The translations under genes were made by a program, and so were the position numbers. From Deltaproteobacteria bacterium (lineage in GTDB: Bacteria > Myxococcota_A > UBA796 > UBA9615), in the NCBI GenBank assembly GCA_023954745.1, contig JAGSHC010000020.1:1-48476 (forward strand): a DNA stretch of 48,476 nucleotides. Reading direction: 5' to 3'. A model generated the notes under the pieces. The model was not told the origin of the DNA. It did no database searches and saw only the letters and a program-made list of their open reading frames with translations. This document shows positions 2,253-11,290 of this stretch, piece by piece. The stretch's first letter is position 1. Each line of letters begins with the position of its first letter.

Positions 2253-3020
2253 CTACTGCGCGAGCAGCTTGCTCGCCCGGCGCGCAACGCGGGAGTCAGC
2301 GTCCGCGCTCAGAGTACGGAGCTGCGGGGCCGAGAGTGCGGAGCGGTCGAGGCGGTCGAGGGCGGAAAGAGCCCGCAGACGCACGCTGGCATCAGCATCC
2401 GACAGCAAGGGAAGCAACGCATCGGTGGCCTGCGCGTCACCGACCACTCCCAGAGACTGGGCAGCGGCAGCGCGGACTGCAGCCGAGGGATCGCTGAGGG
2501 AATCGACGAGAGCCGGAGCAACGACCGCGCCGTCGGCGCGACGCGCCACGGTCAGAGCGGCGACCTGCCGGACTTCGGCGTGGGAGTCGCGCAGCGCGAT
2601 GGTGAAGCCCGCCTCGGCCTCGTCTGCGGCGACGCCGCGGAGTCCGAGGACCAACACCGCCCTCACGGAGCCCGCAGGCTCCTCGGCGAGCAACTCGACG
2701 AGGGCATCGCCCCAGTCTGCGGAGAAGCGGCCGACCACATCGGCGAGCGCGGCGCGCACGGGCTCCGGCTCCTCGCCATGGGCGAGACGGTCCAGGGCCA
2801 GGGGAAGCGCGGCCTCGGAGTTGAATTCGGGGCCCATGAACCGGAGGTGCCCGGCGCGGGTCGCCCGGGGCTGCTGGGCCTCGAGGCGGGTCCAGGTGTC
2901 GGGTTGGGTCTGCCACCCCTGGGTCAGCGCGACGGAGAGTCGCTCCTCCCAATCCGCGGCGAGGGCCGTGGTCGGGGCGAGGAGGGCGAGAACGAGGAGA
3001 GGAGTCAGGGTGTTCTTCAT
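2253..3020 (-). CDS. Exported HEAT-repeat protein
   Basis: 255 aa. A signal peptide (MKNTLTPLLVLALLAPTTALA) precedes helical repeats. From about residue 105 to the end, successive units of the form SVRAVLVLGLRG, EVRQVAALTVAR, AVRAAAAQSLG, and SVRLRALSALD fit HEAT/PBS-lyase-like repeats, which form protein-binding solenoids. No catalytic residues are apparent. The start at 3020 is preferred over ATG 3035 because a GAGGA lies about 9 nt upstream and the signal peptide then begins cleanly. The gene starts 4 bp after the PAD lipoprotein stop, so the two are almost certainly co-transcribed. It could serve as a periplasmic partner or scaffold for the upstream enzyme; this is inference from spacing only. 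Confidence 0.85.
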   Translation of the reverse strand: MKNTLTPLLVLALLAPTTALAADWEERLSVALTQGWQTQPDTWTRLEAQQPRATRAGHLRFMGPEFNSEAALPLALDRLAHGEEPEPVRAALADVVGRFSADWGDALVELLAEEPAGSVRAVLVLGLRGVAADEAEAGFTIALRDSHAEVRQVAALTVARRADGAVVAPALVDSLSDPSAAVRAAAAQSLGVVGDAQATDALLPLLSDADASVRLRALSALDRLDRSALSAPQLRTLSADADSRVARRASKLLAQ

Positions 3021-3024
3021 GAGC

Positions 3025-4665
3025 TCAGTCCTCATCCACGAGGGGCCGGATGGAGCGCCCCCAGTCTGACACTGGGGTGCGAATCACGTTGCTGCCGCAG
3101 TGCACCTCGCCCAGACCCATGTGATAGACCCAGAAGTCGTCGAGGAAGTGTAGTTCGTAGTCCGCAGGGAACAGCTCCCGCACCCGAGCAATCATCGGGT
3201 CCGTGCTCTGGTCGTCCAGATCGGTGCGGGTGAAGGGGTCGGCGAGGAAGATCTTCGTTGGCTCTCCCTCGAGGTTGGCCACGATGAGGTTCGCCATGCC
3301 AGGGATGAGGGCGGCGGTGGTCCCGCCGCAGCCTCCAGCCGTCTCGAAGAGCCCCGGAAGCCAGAGGATGTCCTCGTCGTCCAGATTGGCCTCCTCGCGG
3401 AGGATGTCGAGGTTCGGCTCGAGGTAGTCGTCCCAGAGGTCTTCGTTCAAGGCGCGGAGTCCGGCGTCGTTGACGATGTCGCCGACCGTGTCGTGGCCGT
3501 GCCCCTGGGCATAGAGAGGGAGCGGCGTCGCCGGGTCCATCGCGTCGAGGACCTCCCAGGCGCCGGGGATGTCCGTGTAGACGAGGCGCCAGCCCTTGGG
3601 CGCGCCCGGGTCCGGGATCCAGGACATGAACTCGTCGACGTGCCCGACGCAAAGCCAGCTCGAATCGAGCTCAAAGGGGGCCTGGACCACCTGGTCGCCG
3701 AACATGTCGCGGAGCTCGCGGACGACGTTCGACCCGCCGGAGGTGCCCCAGTAGACCTTGCCAAAGGGGTAGTGGACACCATCGACGGTCACCGGGGGGG
3801 TGGCCTCCAGGTTCCCGAAGGAGTCCTGGGAGTTGGCGTTGCCATCACCCCAGGTGCGCACGAGGAACTCAGGCCCCTCGAAGAGCTCTTCGGCGACAGG
3901 ATCGAGACCACGGTCGCGAATCGAGTCGATGACGACATCGATGCGGGCTCCGTTGGCGCTGACCGACCCAAACTCGATCTCGTCCTGGAGCCAGACATCC
4001 CCGCCGTAGTCGAAGCCATCGACGGTGAGGAAGTCATCACCGAGCGCGTCCTGGTAGCCCTCGATGAGGGCGTCGTTGTTGAAGTCCGAGTACCTCACCG
4101 AGACCGCCATCACCTCTTCGGCGGGTTGGAGGTGCTGGTTCATCACCAGCGGAGCAGCGAGGGCTCGGAAGGAGATGGCGTCGATGATGTCGAGGTTGGA
4201 CTTCAGGAAGACGATCTCGAAGGTCGCCTCAGACAGGAAGTCCCTGAACTCCACGTCGAAGCGCACGTCCTCATTCACGCGCTCGACGTCGAACTCGAGC
4301 GGCGAGTCGTCGCCGTCGTTCTCACCGAGGACGAGGCGTCCCGCTTGCCAGACCCGCACTTGCGACTCGCCGGACGTCATGCGCACGCGGAGCGGTCGGG
4401 CCGGGCGCACTGCGTTGGCCACCTCGGCGGGGATGAAGAAGGTGGCGAGGTCGTTGTCGTCCCGCGTCGAGAAGTCTCGCCAGTCGGGGTCACCGTTCTC
4501 GTTGTCGTCGTCGATGTTGGGCACGCCGACGATTCCGGGGAAGTCGTTCTCGGTCAGCTCCGAGAACGCCAGGCGGTCCGCACCGAAGGTCACATCCACT
4601 GTGGGCGTGCACCCGGCGGCGGCGAGGGTGGCGAGGGTGATCAACGCAGTGCGACAGATGTTCAT
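3025..4665 (-). CDS. Peptidylarginine deiminase (animal-type PAD fold), lipoprotein
   Basis: 546 aa. A lipobox (LAAAGC, Cys19) predicts a lipid-anchored envelope protein. The C-terminal two thirds match protein-arginine deiminases, which hydrolyse peptidyl-arginine to citrulline, usually with Ca2+. Catalytic landmarks are all present: WLQDEIEFG (Asp228, cf. PAD4 Asp350), VGHVDEF (His342 and Asp344, cf. His471/Asp473), and GEVHCGSNV (Cys523, cf. Cys645). The segment DSFGNLEATPPVTVDGVHYP (281-300) is nearly the vertebrate signature, and FLDDFWVYH precedes the catalytic Cys. The region before about 215 resembles the middle (PAD_M) domain; the N-terminal PAD_N domain of vertebrate enzymes is not recognisable. 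GGAG sits 5 nt before the ATG. Enzyme identity is strong by motif; activity, Ca2+ need and substrate are untested. Confidence 0.93.
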   Translation of the reverse strand: MNICRTALITLATLAAAGCTPTVDVTFGADRLAFSELTENDFPGIVGVPNIDDDNENGDPDWRDFSTRDDNDLATFFIPAEVANAVRPARPLRVRMTSGESQVRVWQAGRLVLGENDGDDSPLEFDVERVNEDVRFDVEFRDFLSEATFEIVFLKSNLDIIDAISFRALAAPLVMNQHLQPAEEVMAVSVRYSDFNNDALIEGYQDALGDDFLTVDGFDYGGDVWLQDEIEFGSVSANGARIDVVIDSIRDRGLDPVAEELFEGPEFLVRTWGDGNANSQDSFGNLEATPPVTVDGVHYPFGKVYWGTSGGSNVVRELRDMFGDQVVQAPFELDSSWLCVGHVDEFMSWIPDPGAPKGWRLVYTDIPGAWEVLDAMDPATPLPLYAQGHGHDTVGDIVNDAGLRALNEDLWDDYLEPNLDILREEANLDDEDILWLPGLFETAGGCGGTTAALIPGMANLIVANLEGEPTKIFLADPFTRTDLDDQSTDPMIARVRELFPADYELHFLDDFWVYHMGLGEVHCGSNVIRTPVSDWGRSIRPLVDED

Positions 4666-4940: not shown

Positions 4941-5837
4941 TCAGGACCAGTAGTGGAGCTTCATGCAGAAGACAGACCCACCGGACTTCAGGTACTCGCT
5001 CGTGTCGAGCAACACGATCTCGAGCCCGCGCGCCTCGAGGGCCGCGAAGGTCGACGGACAGCCGGGGTGCACGAGGAAGTGCTGCCCATCAGGGCAGTGT
5101 CCATTGCACACCATGTTCACGGCCTCGGCCTCTTGCACCGCGATGGCCTCGGGGTAGACCGCCTCGATCAGCGCGACCCCTTCGTCGGTGAAGGCCCCTG
5201 GGTAGTACAGCGCGCACTGGGAGTCGATGGGGCTGAGGCAAGTGTCGAGGTGATAGAAGCGCGGGTCCGTGAGCTCGAGGAGGACCACCGGCACTCCGGT
5301 CCACGCACTGATTCGCTCGTAGGCCGCCGTCGTGGAGCGCGGCCCAACCCCGCCGAGCAGCAACGCGCGCTCCGGGTGCCAGGAACCGTCGCCCGTTCCC
5401 TCGAACGCCCGCACGACGTAGGGGTCGAGACGCTCCAGGTGCAGGCCTCGCTCCTCCAACGCGGCCGCATAGGGCCGGATCTCAGGCTGGCGCCGCGACG
5501 ACTTCATGATCGAGAGCACCGCCGACGGCCCCTCAGCGAGCAGCCCAGGGGGTACGGGGAGCGCCTGGTTCGCCGTGAAGACGAAGTCGGGCAAGAAGGG
5601 CTCACCCGGCAGGACCTCGACTGGATCCGACAGCGTCTCGTACGCGCGCCGCAGGCTCAGCCACTGCTGACGAGCCAGAAGGCGATCAACCCCCTCGACG
5701 TATGCCGCCATGTGGGGGTTGATCACGTACTCCACGTCGTAGAACTCGGGCTCGACGAGGAGGATGCGGTTGGGACGAGGGATTCGAGGCAACGCCTCGA
5801 TGTCTGGAAGCTCGGCGACCGTGCGAATCAACTGCAT
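4941..5837 (-). CDS. Amidinotransferase/DDAH-superfamily hydrolase
   Basis: 298 aa, the usual length for dimethylarginine dimethylaminohydrolase (DDAH)-like members of the guanidino-modifying enzyme superfamily. Visible motifs are PDFVFTAN (83-90, substrate loop), EGTGD (146-150, acidic catalytic position), YHLDTCLSP (catalytic His196), and SGGSVFCMKL (nucleophile Cys291 near the C-terminus). No signal peptide is present, so it should be cytosolic. Family members hydrolyse arginine, methylarginine or related guanidines, or transfer the amidino group. The exact substrate cannot be read from the sequence. It starts 18 nt after the GltJ-like gene with no clear Shine-Dalgarno, suggesting read-through from that promoter. 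It lies 275 bp upstream of the PAD gene on the same strand; a functional link through citrulline or methylarginine is possible but inferred. Confidence 0.85.
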   Translation of the reverse strand: MQLIRTVAELPDIEALPRIPRPNRILLVEPEFYDVEYVINPHMAAYVEGVDRLLARQQWLSLRRAYETLSDPVEVLPGEPFLPDFVFTANQALPVPPGLLAEGPSAVLSIMKSSRRQPEIRPYAAALEERGLHLERLDPYVVRAFEGTGDGSWHPERALLLGGVGPRSTTAAYERISAWTGVPVVLLELTDPRFYHLDTCLSPIDSQCALYYPGAFTDEGVALIEAVYPEAIAVQEAEAVNMVCNGHCPDGQHFLVHPGCPSTFAALEARGLEIVLLDTSEYLKSGGSVFCMKLHYWS

Positions 5838-5855: not shown

Positions 5856-7565
5856 TCAGAGCACCGTGAACGGGTAGCGCACCTGCTGGGTATCACCATC
5901 GAAGGGCGGGAAGTTCAGCTGATTCACTTCCTTGCTCACGCACTGGTCGAGGGCCGTCCCGGCGAAGCGAGAGGTCGTGATCCGTGCGCGACTCACCCCA
6001 CCATCCGGGGCGATGCTGAACTTGAGGTAGATCTTCCCGGAGATGTCCGTGCCGCGCGCCTTCTCGAGGGTGAAGCAACGGTTGATGTTCGCGTTGTTGC
6101 GAATGATCGTGTCGATCACGAACGGGCTCGGGCCGGCGGAGCTTCCCCCGGTGCTCTTCTCTTCGGGAGGCGCGCCGGGACCGACGGGCTTGTTCGGGCG
6201 CGTGAGGCCTCGAGGGGTCGGCTCCTCCTTCTTCGGGGCCGGCGTCGGCTGCTCCACCTTGCGGGGAGCGGGCGTGGGCTCGGGCTCCCGAACCGGAGCG
6301 GGCGTGGGCTCCGGGGCCGCGGTGGGCTCCTCATCGGAGAACTTGCGGGCCTCTTCACGCTCAGCGGCGGTCAAGCCGTCGTTGGGCGTGGCGGGCTCGG
6401 CGCTCGCGGCCTCGGGGGCGGTCTCGCCGGGAGCCGCAGGATCCGCGACCGGCTCTGGGGCTGCAGGGCTGGGGTCCTCCAGGGGAATCCCGCCGAGGCT
6501 GTCGGCGGGCTCGGGGGTTGCCCCCGCCCGGGTATGGGCGAGGAAACCAAGCGCGCTGCCCACGAGCAAGCCCAGGAACAGGGCGATCCCCGCCTGACCC
6601 GCTTTGCGACCGCGCTGCGAGAGAATCGGCAGGAAGAGGCACGCCGTGGCGGCAAATCCCGCGAGTGCAATCCCCAGGGTGCTGACCGGCGGAGCGGCGA
6701 GGGTCGCCCCCACACCGAAGAGCCCAAGGGCGCCGAGACCGGCGATGACGCCGAGCTCCGACGAGCCCGACGCGGACGCAGGGGCAGGGGCGGCAGCGGC
6801 GGCCGTCGCTGCGGCCGCCAGGGCGTCGTGCTGACCGGTCTGAAGCTCCGGAGGGATGATCGACGAGGCAGGCTGACCCTTCTTTGGGGGCGCCGGCGCC
6901 GTCATCGGCGGCACGGTGGGCACCGCCGGCAGGTTGCCGGTGGAGGGAGCACCTCCCGGACGCATGCCCGGCTTCGAAGGAGCCGGGGAGCGCGGAGCGC
7001 CGTGCTTCGCCGGGGGAAGCGGCATCTGAGGTACGACCGCCGGGGGCGGGCGGCTCATGGGGCGCGTCGCATCGTCCTCGTTGGAGGGAGGCGCGGGAGG
7101 CACACCGGGCTTCTTGGGAAGCGGGGGGAGATCCGGGCGGGGCCCGTGATACACGGCCGTCGCCGGAGCGTCCTTCGGAGGAATGCCGGGAGGACCGACC
7201 CTCGGAGGAAGCGGCGGGACCGGGGGCGAGGCACCGGTGGCCGGGCTCAACGACGCCGGGCGCGGAGGCGCGACCGGCTGAACTCCGGGCAACGAGATCG
7301 CGCGAAGCTCGGCCGTCAGGCTCCCGATGGCGGGGACCTTTCCGGTGCTCGCGCCGACCTTGTCCAGGCCCTCGACGGACTTGATGACGGTGCGCTCCTC
7401 CGCCTCGGACGGGCGGGCGGCAGCAGCAGCAGCCCGGGCACTTCCGGGCTTGTAGATCACAATCTTGTGCCCGCACCGCTTACAGGTAGCCTTGTTGACT
7501 TCCTTGCTCAGCTTGGAATCGGCGATCTTGTAGACAGCGCCGCAATTGTCGCAGACGACTCGCAT
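5856..7565 (-). CDS. GltJ/AgmX-like zinc-ribbon, TonB-like C-terminal envelope protein
   Basis: 569 aa. An MJ0042-type zinc ribbon opens the protein (Cys5, Cys8, Cys28, Cys31). A long Pro/Ala-rich linker follows (about 50-260), then two or three hydrophobic segments (about 268-320 and 327-345). A second Pro/Glu-rich linker comes next, and finally a TonB/AgmX-PglI-like domain (about 480-569) containing INRCFTLEKARG and SGKIYLKFSIAPDGGV. This order recalls Myxococcus GltJ/AgmX, an inner-membrane component of the gliding machinery whose C-terminal domain is periplasmic. I see no GYF domain, so it may be a general TonB-like scaffold rather than a true motility protein. A GGAGA lies just before the ATG, and a sigma-70-like promoter lies about 100 nt upstream. 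Confidence 0.85.
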   Translation of the reverse strand: MRVVCDNCGAVYKIADSKLSKEVNKATCKRCGHKIVIYKPGSARAAAAAARPSEAEERTVIKSVEGLDKVGASTGKVPAIGSLTAELRAISLPGVQPVAPPRPASLSPATGASPPVPPLPPRVGPPGIPPKDAPATAVYHGPRPDLPPLPKKPGVPPAPPSNEDDATRPMSRPPPAVVPQMPLPPAKHGAPRSPAPSKPGMRPGGAPSTGNLPAVPTVPPMTAPAPPKKGQPASSIIPPELQTGQHDALAAAATAAAAAPAPASASGSSELGVIAGLGALGLFGVGATLAAPPVSTLGIALAGFAATACLFLPILSQRGRKAGQAGIALFLGLLVGSALGFLAHTRAGATPEPADSLGGIPLEDPSPAAPEPVADPAAPGETAPEAASAEPATPNDGLTAAEREEARKFSDEEPTAAPEPTPAPVREPEPTPAPRKVEQPTPAPKKEEPTPRGLTRPNKPVGPGAPPEEKSTGGSSAGPSPFVIDTIIRNNANINRCFTLEKARGTDISGKIYLKFSIAPDGGVSRARITTSRFAGTALDQCVSKEVNQLNFPPFDGDTQQVRYPFTVL

Positions 7566-7787: not shown

Positions 7788-8420
7788 GTGTCGCAGACCA
7801 GGGCGAAACCGCGGAAGTTCATCGCCGTCGCTGGGAACATCGGCGCTGGCAAGTCGACCATGGTCGACTTCTTGTGCAGCACCTACGGCTGGCGCCCGTT
7901 CACCGAGCCCAACCTGCTCAACCCCTATCTCGATGACTTCTACGGCGACATGTCCTCCTGGGCATTTCATAGCCAGATCAGCTTTCTCGCCCACAAGTTC
8001 CGCATCCACATGGAGGTGATGGCCGAGAAGCAGACCGTGGTCCAGGACCGCACGATCTATGAAGACGCCGAGATCTTCGCTCGGTACCTGTATCAGGCGG
8101 GCTACATCAACGATCGCGACTACGGGACCTACACGGATCTCTACGAGGCCATGAAGCGCGCCCTCGCGCCCCCCGATCTCCTCATTCGACTCGACTGCTC
8201 CGTTCGCGCGGTCCGGCTGCGCATCCGAAAACGCGGCCGCCCCGAAGAGCAGGACATCCCACTGAAGTACATCAAGTCCCTCCAGGCGCTCTACGACGAC
8301 TGGTTCGATCGCTACGACGCATCCCCCGTGCTGGTGATCAACACCGAGCGGCTCGACTACATCGGGGACATGGTCGATCGCCTCGAGGTGCGCCAGGCCC
8401 TCGAGCCCTTCCTTCTATGA
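7788..8420 (+). CDS. Deoxynucleoside kinase (dCK/dGK/dAK family)
   Basis: 210 aa, typical for the family. It phosphorylates deoxynucleosides to monophosphates using ATP in the salvage pathway, in the cytosol. The P-loop is GNIGAGKST (16-24). FTEPN and the QDRTIYED segment (the family's DRS-like catalytic/base-binding motif) follow, and RIRKRGRPEEQ forms the Arg-rich lid. Which base it prefers cannot be decided from the sequence. The GTG start at 7788 has no Shine-Dalgarno but has TAGTCT 7 nt upstream, consistent with leaderless initiation. Its stop overlaps the next start as ATGA, so the repeat lipoprotein is translationally coupled to it. I see no functional logic for that pairing. Confidence 0.92.
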   Translation: MSQTRAKPRKFIAVAGNIGAGKSTMVDFLCSTYGWRPFTEPNLLNPYLDDFYGDMSSWAFHSQISFLAHKFRIHMEVMAEKQTVVQDRTIYEDAEIFARYLYQAGYINDRDYGTYTDLYEAMKRALAPPDLLIRLDCSVRAVRLRIRKRGRPEEQDIPLKYIKSLQALYDDWFDRYDASPVLVINTERLDYIGDMVDRLEVRQALEPFLL

Positions 8421-11290
8421 GGTGGCGCGCGCGCCAGATCACCCTGGGCCTCACCTTCGCGCTGCTCGTGGCGTGTCCAAAGAAGGCACCGGAGCTGGTC
8501 CCCCCTGCGCCGGGACAAGCGCCGATCGATGGGCTGCTCGCCTTGGCAGAGCGCACGCGGGCCGATCTCGCCCTCCCCCGGGCCGACGAGGCCGGCTACC
8601 ACGTCCCCACCTCCTACGACGCCATCGACAAGGCCCTCGCGGAGCCCCTCGCGATTCCGAGCCTCGGCGCCTCCCTTGGCGTAGCCCTCGACGGAGCCAA
8701 CGACCCTGCCTCCCTCTTCGCGGCCCTGGAGCCCGTGGACCCTGCCGGCAGCAACGTCGAGCTCCCCGCCGGAGCGGAGCCGAACCCGCCAGGCGATCGC
8801 CGCGTGGTGGGACTCCCCCTCCCCTCGGAGCTCGTGACCTCGCCGCGCTGGCCGGTGCGGATGCAGCACTTGCCCGCTCCTTGGCCCGAGGCCATCGCTG
8901 AGCTGGCGCTGCTCCTCGAGGAGATCGACGAGAACGCGGCCTCCTGGGACCGACGGGGCCACGCGCCCACCCGCCCAGCGCGCGCCGCCGAGGAGTACTT
9001 CATCGACGGAGAGACCGGCGACTACCGCTTTCTCACCCACCCCGTGGGAGTGCAGCTGGAGTTCCTGGCGCACGCCGGGACCCTCGACCACGCGGCCATG
9101 AGAGACGACGCGCAGCGGGTGCTCGACGCAGCCCGCGCCTGGGCGCCCCGTCTGCAGGAAGCCGCCGCCGCCTTGCCCGAGAGCGACGGCCCGCTGCTTC
9201 AGTTGGAGACCGCCCTCGGCGCGGTCATCCTCGGCAACCTCGGTCCCGACAACTACGAGAGCGACGCGCTGCTGATCATCGACCCGGGGGGGCGGGACCG
9301 GTGGACCGCCGGGGCTGGCTCCAACGTGGGCATCCCCGGCCGCGCGGCCCTGGCCCTCGACCTCGGCGGCAGCGACTCCTACACCGCGCGTCGCGCTCAC
9401 GCTCAAGGAGCAGGCTTCCTGGGTATCGGGGTGCTGGTCGACGCCGGCCCCGAAGGGGATCGCTATCTGGGGATGAACCAGGCGCAGGGCGCGGGGTTCA
9501 TGGGAGTCGGCGTGCTCTGGGATGCCGGCGGCGACGACGGGTACACGGCGGCGGGCTTCGCCCAGGGAGCAGGGACCTTCGGAATCGGTCTGCTGGTCGA
9601 CGAGGCCGGTGACGACTCCGCCGCCGCGCAAGGGCGCGCCCAGGGCTTCGGAAGCACTGGTGGGCTCGGCGCGTTCATCGACTTCGCCGGGAACGACCAG
9701 CGACGCCTCGGCACGAGCGGGGAGCGACTCCTCGGTCCGGGAGGCGGAGGAGGACAGGGGGCGGGCTTCGGTACGCGACCGTTCCCGTGGTCCCTCGATG
9801 CGTCCATCCACGGCGGAGTGGGGCTCCTGTACGACCGCGCGGGCAACGACTCCTACTTCGGCCGCGGGTTCGCCCAGGGCGCCGGGTGGTTCCTCAGCCT
9901 TGGGCTGCTGCTCGAGCGCGCGGGGCGCGACCGCTACACCGGCCAGGAGTGGTCCCAGGGAGCGGCGAACCACCTCGCGGCCGGCCTGCTTCAAGACGCG
10001 GGCGGGAACGACATCTACAGCGCCGCAAGGTTCTCCCAGGCGGCAGCGTCCGACCGGTCGGTGGCGATCCTCCACGACCAGGGCCCCGACGCCGACGGCT
10101 ATCGCCTCGGCTCCATTGGCCCCGGAACGCAGGGGGAGGGCCGCGCCGGAATGGGATGGGCGAGGCAGAGCCGCGCCCTGGCCATGCTCGTGGACGAAGG
10201 CGGCGACGACGTGCGCCGCGCGAACCAACAGGCTCTCGCCACGGGGGTCCCCGCCGCCGCAGAAGGAGAAGACCCCCTGGCGGTCCTTCTCGATCTCGGT
10301 GGGGTCGACAGCTACGAGCTCGGTCTTGTGCCTGCCGGCACCAACCCCGCCGACGGCGCCGCCTGGTTCTCGGGCACCGTCGGTGTCGCTCAGGACGTCG
10401 ATCCCGCGGCCGCTGGCGTGCTCCCCATCGCGGGCTGGTCCCCCTGGCCAACGACCGCCGACGCCGGCTTCTCCTGGGCGGGCCCTCTGGACTCCCTCCC
10501 GGCCCCACCCTTGGTGGACGGGGACCTCGACGGCGGCCCGGCCTCGCTTCAGCGCTGGATCGAGGCGCGGGGCCGCGAGTGGTTGGTCGCACTCCCCGAG
10601 GAGGACGACGTCGCGCTCGAGCGGGTGCGGGAGGCAGCCCGCAAGGACCGGTCGGCGCGGGTCCGACGTGCGGCGGGGCTGGCTCTGCTCTCCGCCGAGC
10701 TGCCCGAGGGGCTCGACGCGGTCATCGACTCTCTCAGCCTCTACTCGGCGGACCACGATCCCGACACACCAGCGGGGTCTCTTGCAGGGCGTCTTCAGGC
10801 ACTCACGGGCCAGGAGCACGGGTTCGATGCCGCTGCCTGGAAGCTGTGGTGGCAAGGGGCCCGCAGCAGCAACCCCCTGGAGGCCCGCCTCCCCGGCTGG
10901 CGGCTCCTCGAGCGCGCGCGGCTAGCGAGCTCGGGCGGAGATCCCGTACAGGCCGCTCAACTCTGTGACCAGGCGCTCGACATGTCCGGCGGGGCCCCAG
11001 GCATCCGTCGATTCGCCGGCTCCATGATGGGCCGGTGGGCGGCGCTCCTCGCGAACCCCGAGACCGGAGCGCTCTACGATCCCGCCGTCTCCGCCGATCT
11101 CGCGCGGCGCGCCCTCCAATGGGACCCTGGCGGGGCCACCCACTTCGCCACTCTCGGTCGCGCCCTCGAAGCGCTGGGCGAGGTCGACCTGGCCAAGCGA
11201 GCCGCCCAACAAGGCACGCTCGCCGACCCCGACGACCCCGACATCAACGCCCTCCGACGACGCCTCGGCCTCGAGCCCGAGGAAAAGTGA
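8417..11290 (+). CDS. Large lipoprotein with GGxDxY/QGAG tandem repeats
   Basis: 957 aa. A lipobox (LLVAC, Cys20) marks an outer-envelope lipoprotein. Residues about 285-635 hold roughly twelve imperfect units of about 26 residues. Their core reads hydrophobic-L-h-D-x-GG-x-D-x-Y, then AQGAG and GhGhL; examples are AGGDDGYTAAGFAQGAG and AGGNDIYSAARFSQ. The regular Asp/Gly turns and alternating hydrophobics suggest a beta-solenoid, possibly metal-binding, but this is not the RTX nonapeptide. A HEAT-like stretch (about 735-780, RVRRAAGLALL) and a C-terminal TPR-like region (about 890-945) follow. The first 280 residues are unrecognised. There is no catalytic signature. It is coupled to the upstream kinase by a 4-bp overlap. 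Confidence 0.85.
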   Translation: MRWRARQITLGLTFALLVACPKKAPELVPPAPGQAPIDGLLALAERTRADLALPRADEAGYHVPTSYDAIDKALAEPLAIPSLGASLGVALDGANDPASLFAALEPVDPAGSNVELPAGAEPNPPGDRRVVGLPLPSELVTSPRWPVRMQHLPAPWPEAIAELALLLEEIDENAASWDRRGHAPTRPARAAEEYFIDGETGDYRFLTHPVGVQLEFLAHAGTLDHAAMRDDAQRVLDAARAWAPRLQEAAAALPESDGPLLQLETALGAVILGNLGPDNYESDALLIIDPGGRDRWTAGAGSNVGIPGRAALALDLGGSDSYTARRAHAQGAGFLGIGVLVDAGPEGDRYLGMNQAQGAGFMGVGVLWDAGGDDGYTAAGFAQGAGTFGIGLLVDEAGDDSAAAQGRAQGFGSTGGLGAFIDFAGNDQRRLGTSGERLLGPGGGGGQGAGFGTRPFPWSLDASIHGGVGLLYDRAGNDSYFGRGFAQGAGWFLSLGLLLERAGRDRYTGQEWSQGAANHLAAGLLQDAGGNDIYSAARFSQAAASDRSVAILHDQGPDADGYRLGSIGPGTQGEGRAGMGWARQSRALAMLVDEGGDDVRRANQQALATGVPAAAEGEDPLAVLLDLGGVDSYELGLVPAGTNPADGAAWFSGTVGVAQDVDPAAAGVLPIAGWSPWPTTADAGFSWAGPLDSLPAPPLVDGDLDGGPASLQRWIEARGREWLVALPEEDDVALERVREAARKDRSARVRRAAGLALLSAELPEGLDAVIDSLSLYSADHDPDTPAGSLAGRLQALTGQEHGFDAAAWKLWWQGARSSNPLEARLPGWRLLERARLASSGGDPVQAAQLCDQALDMSGGAPGIRRFAGSMMGRWAALLANPETGALYDPAVSADLARRALQWDPGGATHFATLGRALEALGEVDLAKRAAQQGTLADPDDPDINALRRRLGLEPEEK
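9269..10322 (+). repeat. About twelve degenerate ~26-codon repeats in the lipoprotein
   Basis: Protein-level repeats (residues about 285-635) with core GG-x-D-x-Y followed by QGAG and a hydrophobic GxGxLxD strand. Two units are expanded, one by a Gly-rich insertion near 9740 and one near 10110. At DNA level the units have diverged and show no long identities, so the array is old. Confidence 0.65.

Follow-up and report, generated by a model that had tools for sequence, protein, structure and literature searches.

Does a bacterial genome encode a peptidylarginine deiminase (PAD) of the animal type, and what might such an enzyme do on the bacterial cell? The question is raised by an open reading frame in the window, by which we mean the whole stretch of DNA analysed here, 48,476 nucleotides of contig JAGSHC010000020.1 from Deltaproteobacteria bacterium (assembly GCA_023954745.1). 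A sequence-only reading had interpreted the frame as an animal-type PAD exported as a lipoprotein. The gene (positions 3025..4665, (-)) encodes 546 residues plus a stop. According to the Pfam search, residues 162-535 matched the PAD catalytic domain (PAD_C) PF03068 with 198.7 bits (E=2e-58; cut-off 25); the domain spans 3061..4182 (-) and covers PF03068 positions 5-393. In phmmer searches the protein found human PAD1-4 and PAD6, with E-values of 2.6e-45 for PAD2 and 2.9e-44 for PAD4, and it matched PADs in the PDB. An AlphaFold2 model (mean pLDDT 91) matched the fold of human PAD4 along its full length (8r8v_A; TMq 0.75 and E=4.7e-41 over 527 alignment columns). A chance match is excluded, and the frame is a PAD gene of the animal type, as had been proposed.

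The alignment to human PAD4, for which the yardstick stretch was identical to the PDB chains when compared, placed the four catalytic residues exactly where they had been claimed. Asp228 (3982..3984), His342 (3640..3642), Asp344 (3634..3636) and the nucleophile Cys523 (3097..3099), all (-), were in register with PAD4 D350, H471, D473 and C645, respectively. These residues lie in the contexts WLQDE (Asp228), VGHVDEF (His342 and Asp344) and GEVHCGSN (Cys523), and residues 281-300 read directly as DSFGNLEATPPVTVDGVHYP. The D/H/D/C columns were invariant in 96 of 96 aligned bacterial PADs.

Upstream of the catalytic domain, the window PAD searched alone had no Pfam match to PAD_N or PAD_M at E<=1. 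A profile built only from the N-terminal third of 29 relatives nonetheless picked up human PAD4 in its middle domain (chain residues 122-313, E=4.5e-8), and PF08527 (PAD_M) was matched directly in 18 of 67 relatives. We therefore assign residues of about 35-170 (4156..4563, (-)) to a divergent PAD_M domain, which goes beyond the domain reading made earlier. The lack of PAD_N noted in that reading held: profile A4 did not detect it either, its matches to human PAD4 chains starting no earlier than residue 118. The protein is thus PAD_M plus PAD_C without PAD_N, the architecture of the two-domain PADs described from fungi and bacteria by Cummings et al. (PMC8826395). The linker between the M and C domains is VMNQHLQ.

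The calcium sites of the animal enzymes are also recognizable. The Ca2 ligands of PAD4, E351, D369, S370 and N373, correspond to Glu229, Asp247, Ser248 and Asp251; the last three lie at 3913..3927 (-) together with the substrate-binding Arg250 and Arg252, which correspond to PAD4 R372 and R374. The equivalent of PAD4 W347 is kept as well. Both the Ca1 site (Q, E, F, L, E) and the Ca2 site (E, D, S, D) are intact. A Ca3-5-type loop, N50-D52-D53-D54...D61...D72 (4450..4518, (-)), corresponds to the N153/D155/D157/D165 region of PAD4 and has nearly invariant positions. The calcium-switch position (D388 in PAD4, D389 in PAD2) is Glu in the window PAD and Gly in some relatives.

PADs have been reported from fewer than 1% of bacterial species (PMC8826395), and the sequence-only reading had likewise called bacterial homologues few. 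For this phylum that view is outdated: PAD carriers made up 94 of 379 genomes sampled from the phylum, nearly all of the PADs being lipoproteins by pattern, as well as 29 of 71 in the class and 6 of 6 in the family, with 0 of 14 among control genomes. Elsewhere, a scan of genome contigs yielded one locus and plasmids yielded only actinobacterial PADs; searches of viral contigs and phages found none.

The alignment resolved the PADs into four groups. The first, here called EDS, is defined by the E351, D369 and S370 of human PADs and comprises proteins from the window's class, families f30 and f32 and one f15 genome. E351 was present in 39 of its 39 members and D369 in 37, whereas neither was kept in the other 57 PADs. 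The remaining groups are type B, which is actinobacteria-like; QQHHD, which has Q-Q-H-H-D at the Ca1 positions and has mostly lost R372; and a small group with an APW linker. In the QQHHD lineage (L060, L068-L096 and L104; families f13 and f15), Arg372 is mostly replaced by Ala, and the substrate may differ. The APW-linker proteins (L057, L058 and L059; family f27) have an animal-like linker, with GPDFGYVW in L057, and no Ca2 site.

According to PMC8826395, Ca2 and Ca4 are exclusive to late cyanobacteria and animals. Because of that limit, the EDS clade stands as an exception. The EDS linker, N-H-H-L, resembles the other, His-rich type: most EDS members have NHH and the window PAD has NQH, as against the triple His of the published description (PMC8826395). 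Actinobacteria and fungi are reported to have Gly at the calcium-switch position (PMC8826395); in our alignment, Asp occupied it in 24 of 39 EDS members and 46 of 57 non-EDS proteins. The two-type scheme of PADs is blurred, in that EDS proteins combine a Ca2 site with a His-rich-like linker and non-EDS proteins often keep the calcium-switch Asp. One genome, G378, holds both an EDS and a QQHHD protein (L097 and L085), and G128 and G297 each hold type B and QQHHD proteins. No species is reported to have both the three-domain and the two-domain type (PMC8826395); these co-occurrences do not contradict that statement, since our groups differ from its two types.

The window PAD begins with a lipoprotein signal peptide by pattern, MNICRTALITLATLAAAGC (4609..4665, (-)), read directly, in which the lipobox LAAAGC occupies residues 14-19 and Cys19 lies at 4609-4611. 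This bears out the lipobox claim, and the PAD appears, from the pattern, to be tethered to the envelope. The following counts come from a loose lipobox pattern, since a stricter one overlooked genuine cases. All 35 EDS-clade PADs that are complete at the N-terminus carry the lipobox (L019 by eye), as do 48 of 52 others whose N-terminus is not truncated by the end of a contig; the four PADs lacking it include two Streptomyces proteins. Judged by these patterns, predicted lipid anchoring is a phylum-wide habit of PADs and not peculiar to the window gene.

The gene immediately downstream of the PAD gene, which had gone unremarked in the sequence-only reading, is conserved. It encodes a HEAT-repeat protein, predicted to be exported (2253..3035, (-); HEAT_2 E=1.6e-16), with the signal peptide MKNTLTPLLVLALLAPTTALAA. 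Counted from the ATG at 3035, it shares 11 bp with the end of the PAD gene, and an alternative ATG at 3017 lies 7 nt past the PAD stop; at EDS loci the overlap of HEAT start and PAD stop is often 4 bp. Using a profile of relatives, we found a HEAT homologue downstream of the PAD at 37 of 37 EDS loci with readable DNA, L003 and L097 being left out because their DNA ends before the HEAT position. At 36 of these loci the homologue is immediately adjacent (weakly matched in L026, 34.6 bits), and at one it follows a tandem PAD pair, in the order PAD-PAD-HEAT (L125 in G063). By contrast, the partner was missing from all 48 classified non-EDS loci that extend far enough to contain it, and from six further non-EDS loci outside the tree. 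The corresponding Fisher p of 6e-25 assumes independent loci, which these are not, and is therefore only descriptive. PAD and HEAT aside, no gene family was linked beyond family or genus level.

By eye, every HEAT partner carries a signal peptide or a lipobox, the lipobox type occurring in f30 and f32 members. The window's own genome contains no second full-length copy (the partner itself scored 264 bits and the next match 53). Divergence of the HEAT proteins correlated with that of the PADs (Mantel r 0.61, against at most 0.29 in 2000 permutations), a correlation that could come from vertical inheritance alone. The model of the HEAT protein (254 residues, pLDDT 94) is a helical solenoid whose repeats are preceded by a small hairpin. 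We found no published description of a PAD-HEAT unit in the open-licence literature on PAD in myxobacteria or Myxococcota, HEAT repeats and lipoproteins.

On balance, we favour the view that the gene encodes a two-domain PAD that, as an envelope lipoprotein, citrullinates envelope or external proteins and works with the HEAT protein; activity, calcium dependence, location and contact are the elements that we infer. The PAD would be co-translated with its dedicated, exported partner, then exported itself and lipid-anchored on the cell envelope, where it would turn arginine into citrulline in envelope or external proteins. Millimolar calcium outside the cytoplasm would keep the enzyme on, and low cytoplasmic calcium would keep it off before export. 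Calcium-dependent activity is plausible, as a cyanobacterial relative is active and strictly calcium-dependent (PMC8826395). The HEAT protein would most likely be a scaffold that presents substrates or controls access to the active site. Some observations weigh against this view: the Arg374 equivalent is kept in 24 of 39 EDS members, not in all; the calcium-switch residue is Glu in the window PAD; and HEAT homologues exist in genomes that lack PAD.

Since a PAD acts on arginine, and specifically on peptidyl-arginine, the HEAT protein might instead be its substrate or a pseudosubstrate inhibitor. Arg60 (2856..2858, (-)) is the sole residue invariant in all 37 partners, and a high-confidence predicted model places it in a hairpin loop before and outside the solenoid (loop 53-57 in the 254-residue model), from which it could enter the active site. 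In genus g31, 11 genomes encode HEAT homologues but lack PAD; the HEAT protein can therefore act in the absence of the enzyme. Arg60 is kept in 10 of 10 of these homologues whose N-terminal part could be read; its retention where PAD is absent favours a structural role and weakens the substrate reading, which we consider unlikely. With modest confidence, we prefer a scaffold or regulator. In three genomes, the PAD-less HEAT family (L130-L139) lies behind a YHYH (PF14240) protein.

Upstream of the PAD gene, 4941..5837 (-) encodes a cytosolic arginine dihydrolase/DDAH-like enzyme that is syntenic in 5 of 6 family genomes. Its nearest match is the N-terminal portion of cyanobacterial ArgZ (Sll1336, Alr4995), far under the NCBIfam cut-offs. 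This neighbour, together with the free-arginine enzymes of the wider superfamily, lends some colour to a PAD that acts outside the cytoplasm on free arginine, agmatine or small guanidines in arginine catabolism, and not on proteins. Against this, the upstream enzyme has no signal peptide and is unlinked to PAD outside the family, and the peptide-binding Arg250 and Arg252 are kept in the window PAD. We regard small-molecule catabolism as quite improbable. The dihydrolase was rejected as a core component because its linkage is limited to its own family, and it is probably a neighbour, not part of the PAD unit. Two other genes lie nearby. One (5856-7565, (-)), whose order with PAD is kept in its own family, encodes a zinc-ribbon protein that weakly matches TonB C-terminal; the other (8417-11290, (+)) encodes a large putative lipoprotein in which AQGAG...GGxDxY motifs recur and the C-terminal part matches TPR.

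Least likely is a catalytically weak or dead fold serving as a calcium-dependent binding protein: the fold can drift, since some homologues have lost substrate-binding arginines (Ala at R372 in 16 of 57 non-EDS PADs), but the window PAD has all catalytic residues and Ca1/Ca2 ligands intact, and no aligned relative has lost any of the catalytic four.

In the tree, EDS formed one group with support of 100/100. Human PAD2 and PAD4 joined it with 100/99 when all columns were used and with 96/91 when human positions 348-390, the Ca2 region, were removed. According to AU tests on all columns, placement of the human sequences with the APW group (p 0.24), or with APW plus QQHHD (p 0.20), was not rejected; with the Ca2 region removed, neither these placements (p 0.38 and 0.48) nor one with type B (p 0.40) was rejected. 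The human and EDS branches are both long. The tree was sampled without cyanobacterial sequences, the published sister group of animal PADs, and is for that reason silent on the direction of any transfer. The EDS-human grouping in these alignments is accordingly a lead, not a result. The suggestion that the gene could inform the origin of animal PADs stands insofar as an animal Ca2 site is common to the clade and the human proteins group with it; as a phylogenetic claim it is tempered by the alternatives that the AU test keeps and by the sampling.

We put forward a broader proposal more tentatively: that the PAD and HEAT proteins may form an envelope module in which the latter gates or directs citrullination, and that the animal-type calcium site may be old in bacteria, well beyond cyanobacteria. 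If so, traits held to be unique to animal and cyanobacterial PADs would be ancestral, not newly derived. The Ca2 site has been used as diagnostic of the split between animal/cyanobacterial and fungal/actinobacterial PADs (PMC8826395); a large non-cyanobacterial clade in which this site goes with a His-rich-like linker suggests that the two sides are not sharply separated, and it adds another outgroup for tracing where animal PADs came from. A conserved PAD-HEAT two-gene unit offers a defined place to study the role of citrullination in bacteria. The PAD enzyme family itself is known; what this analysis adds to it are the animal-type Ca2 clade outside cyanobacteria and the linked gene for a predicted exported HEAT protein.

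Among known systems, the Porphyromonas enzyme PPAD is also bacterial and exported and makes peptidyl-citrulline. It belongs to a family separate from that of the window PAD, as the sequence-only reading had held: no PPAD-type family was among the Pfam matches at E<=1, and PPAD is phyletically distinct from PADs (PMC8826395). With human PAD4 and animal PADI1-4, the window protein shares the catalytic D/H/D/C, R372 and R374, the Ca1 and Ca2 sites, the lengths of the loops flanking Ca2 and the M+C fold. Unlike those PAD_N+PAD_M+PAD_C proteins, it lacks PAD_N, carries a lipoprotein signal and is about 33% identical over the aligned part; its VMNQHLQ linker is near the His-rich linker of the other type and its calcium-switch Asp is replaced by Glu. 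The cyanobacterial clade Ai PADI (cyanoPADI, Cyanothece), compared by its description in PMC8826395, is likewise bacterial and has the same catalytic residues and Ca1/Ca2 ligands, but it has a degenerate PAD_N where the window PAD has none. The actinobacterial and fungal two-domain PADIs (PMC8826395; here Streptomyces L063 and L064) are similar in having PAD_M and PAD_C and no PAD_N; their linker is His-rich, and the NQH linker of the window PAD comes close to it. They differ in lacking the E-D-S of Ca2, where they have a two-residue insertion and the window PAD has E-D-S-D, and in a Ca3-5 loop insert that is absent from EDS PADs; the Streptomyces loci have no HEAT partner. Finally, the partner protein has HEAT repeats in common with alphaRep (Foldseek E about 5e-6), CpcE/CpcF and the PP2A scaffold. 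What sets it apart from those solenoids is its predicted export and an additional hairpin, bearing an invariant Arg, ahead of the repeats.
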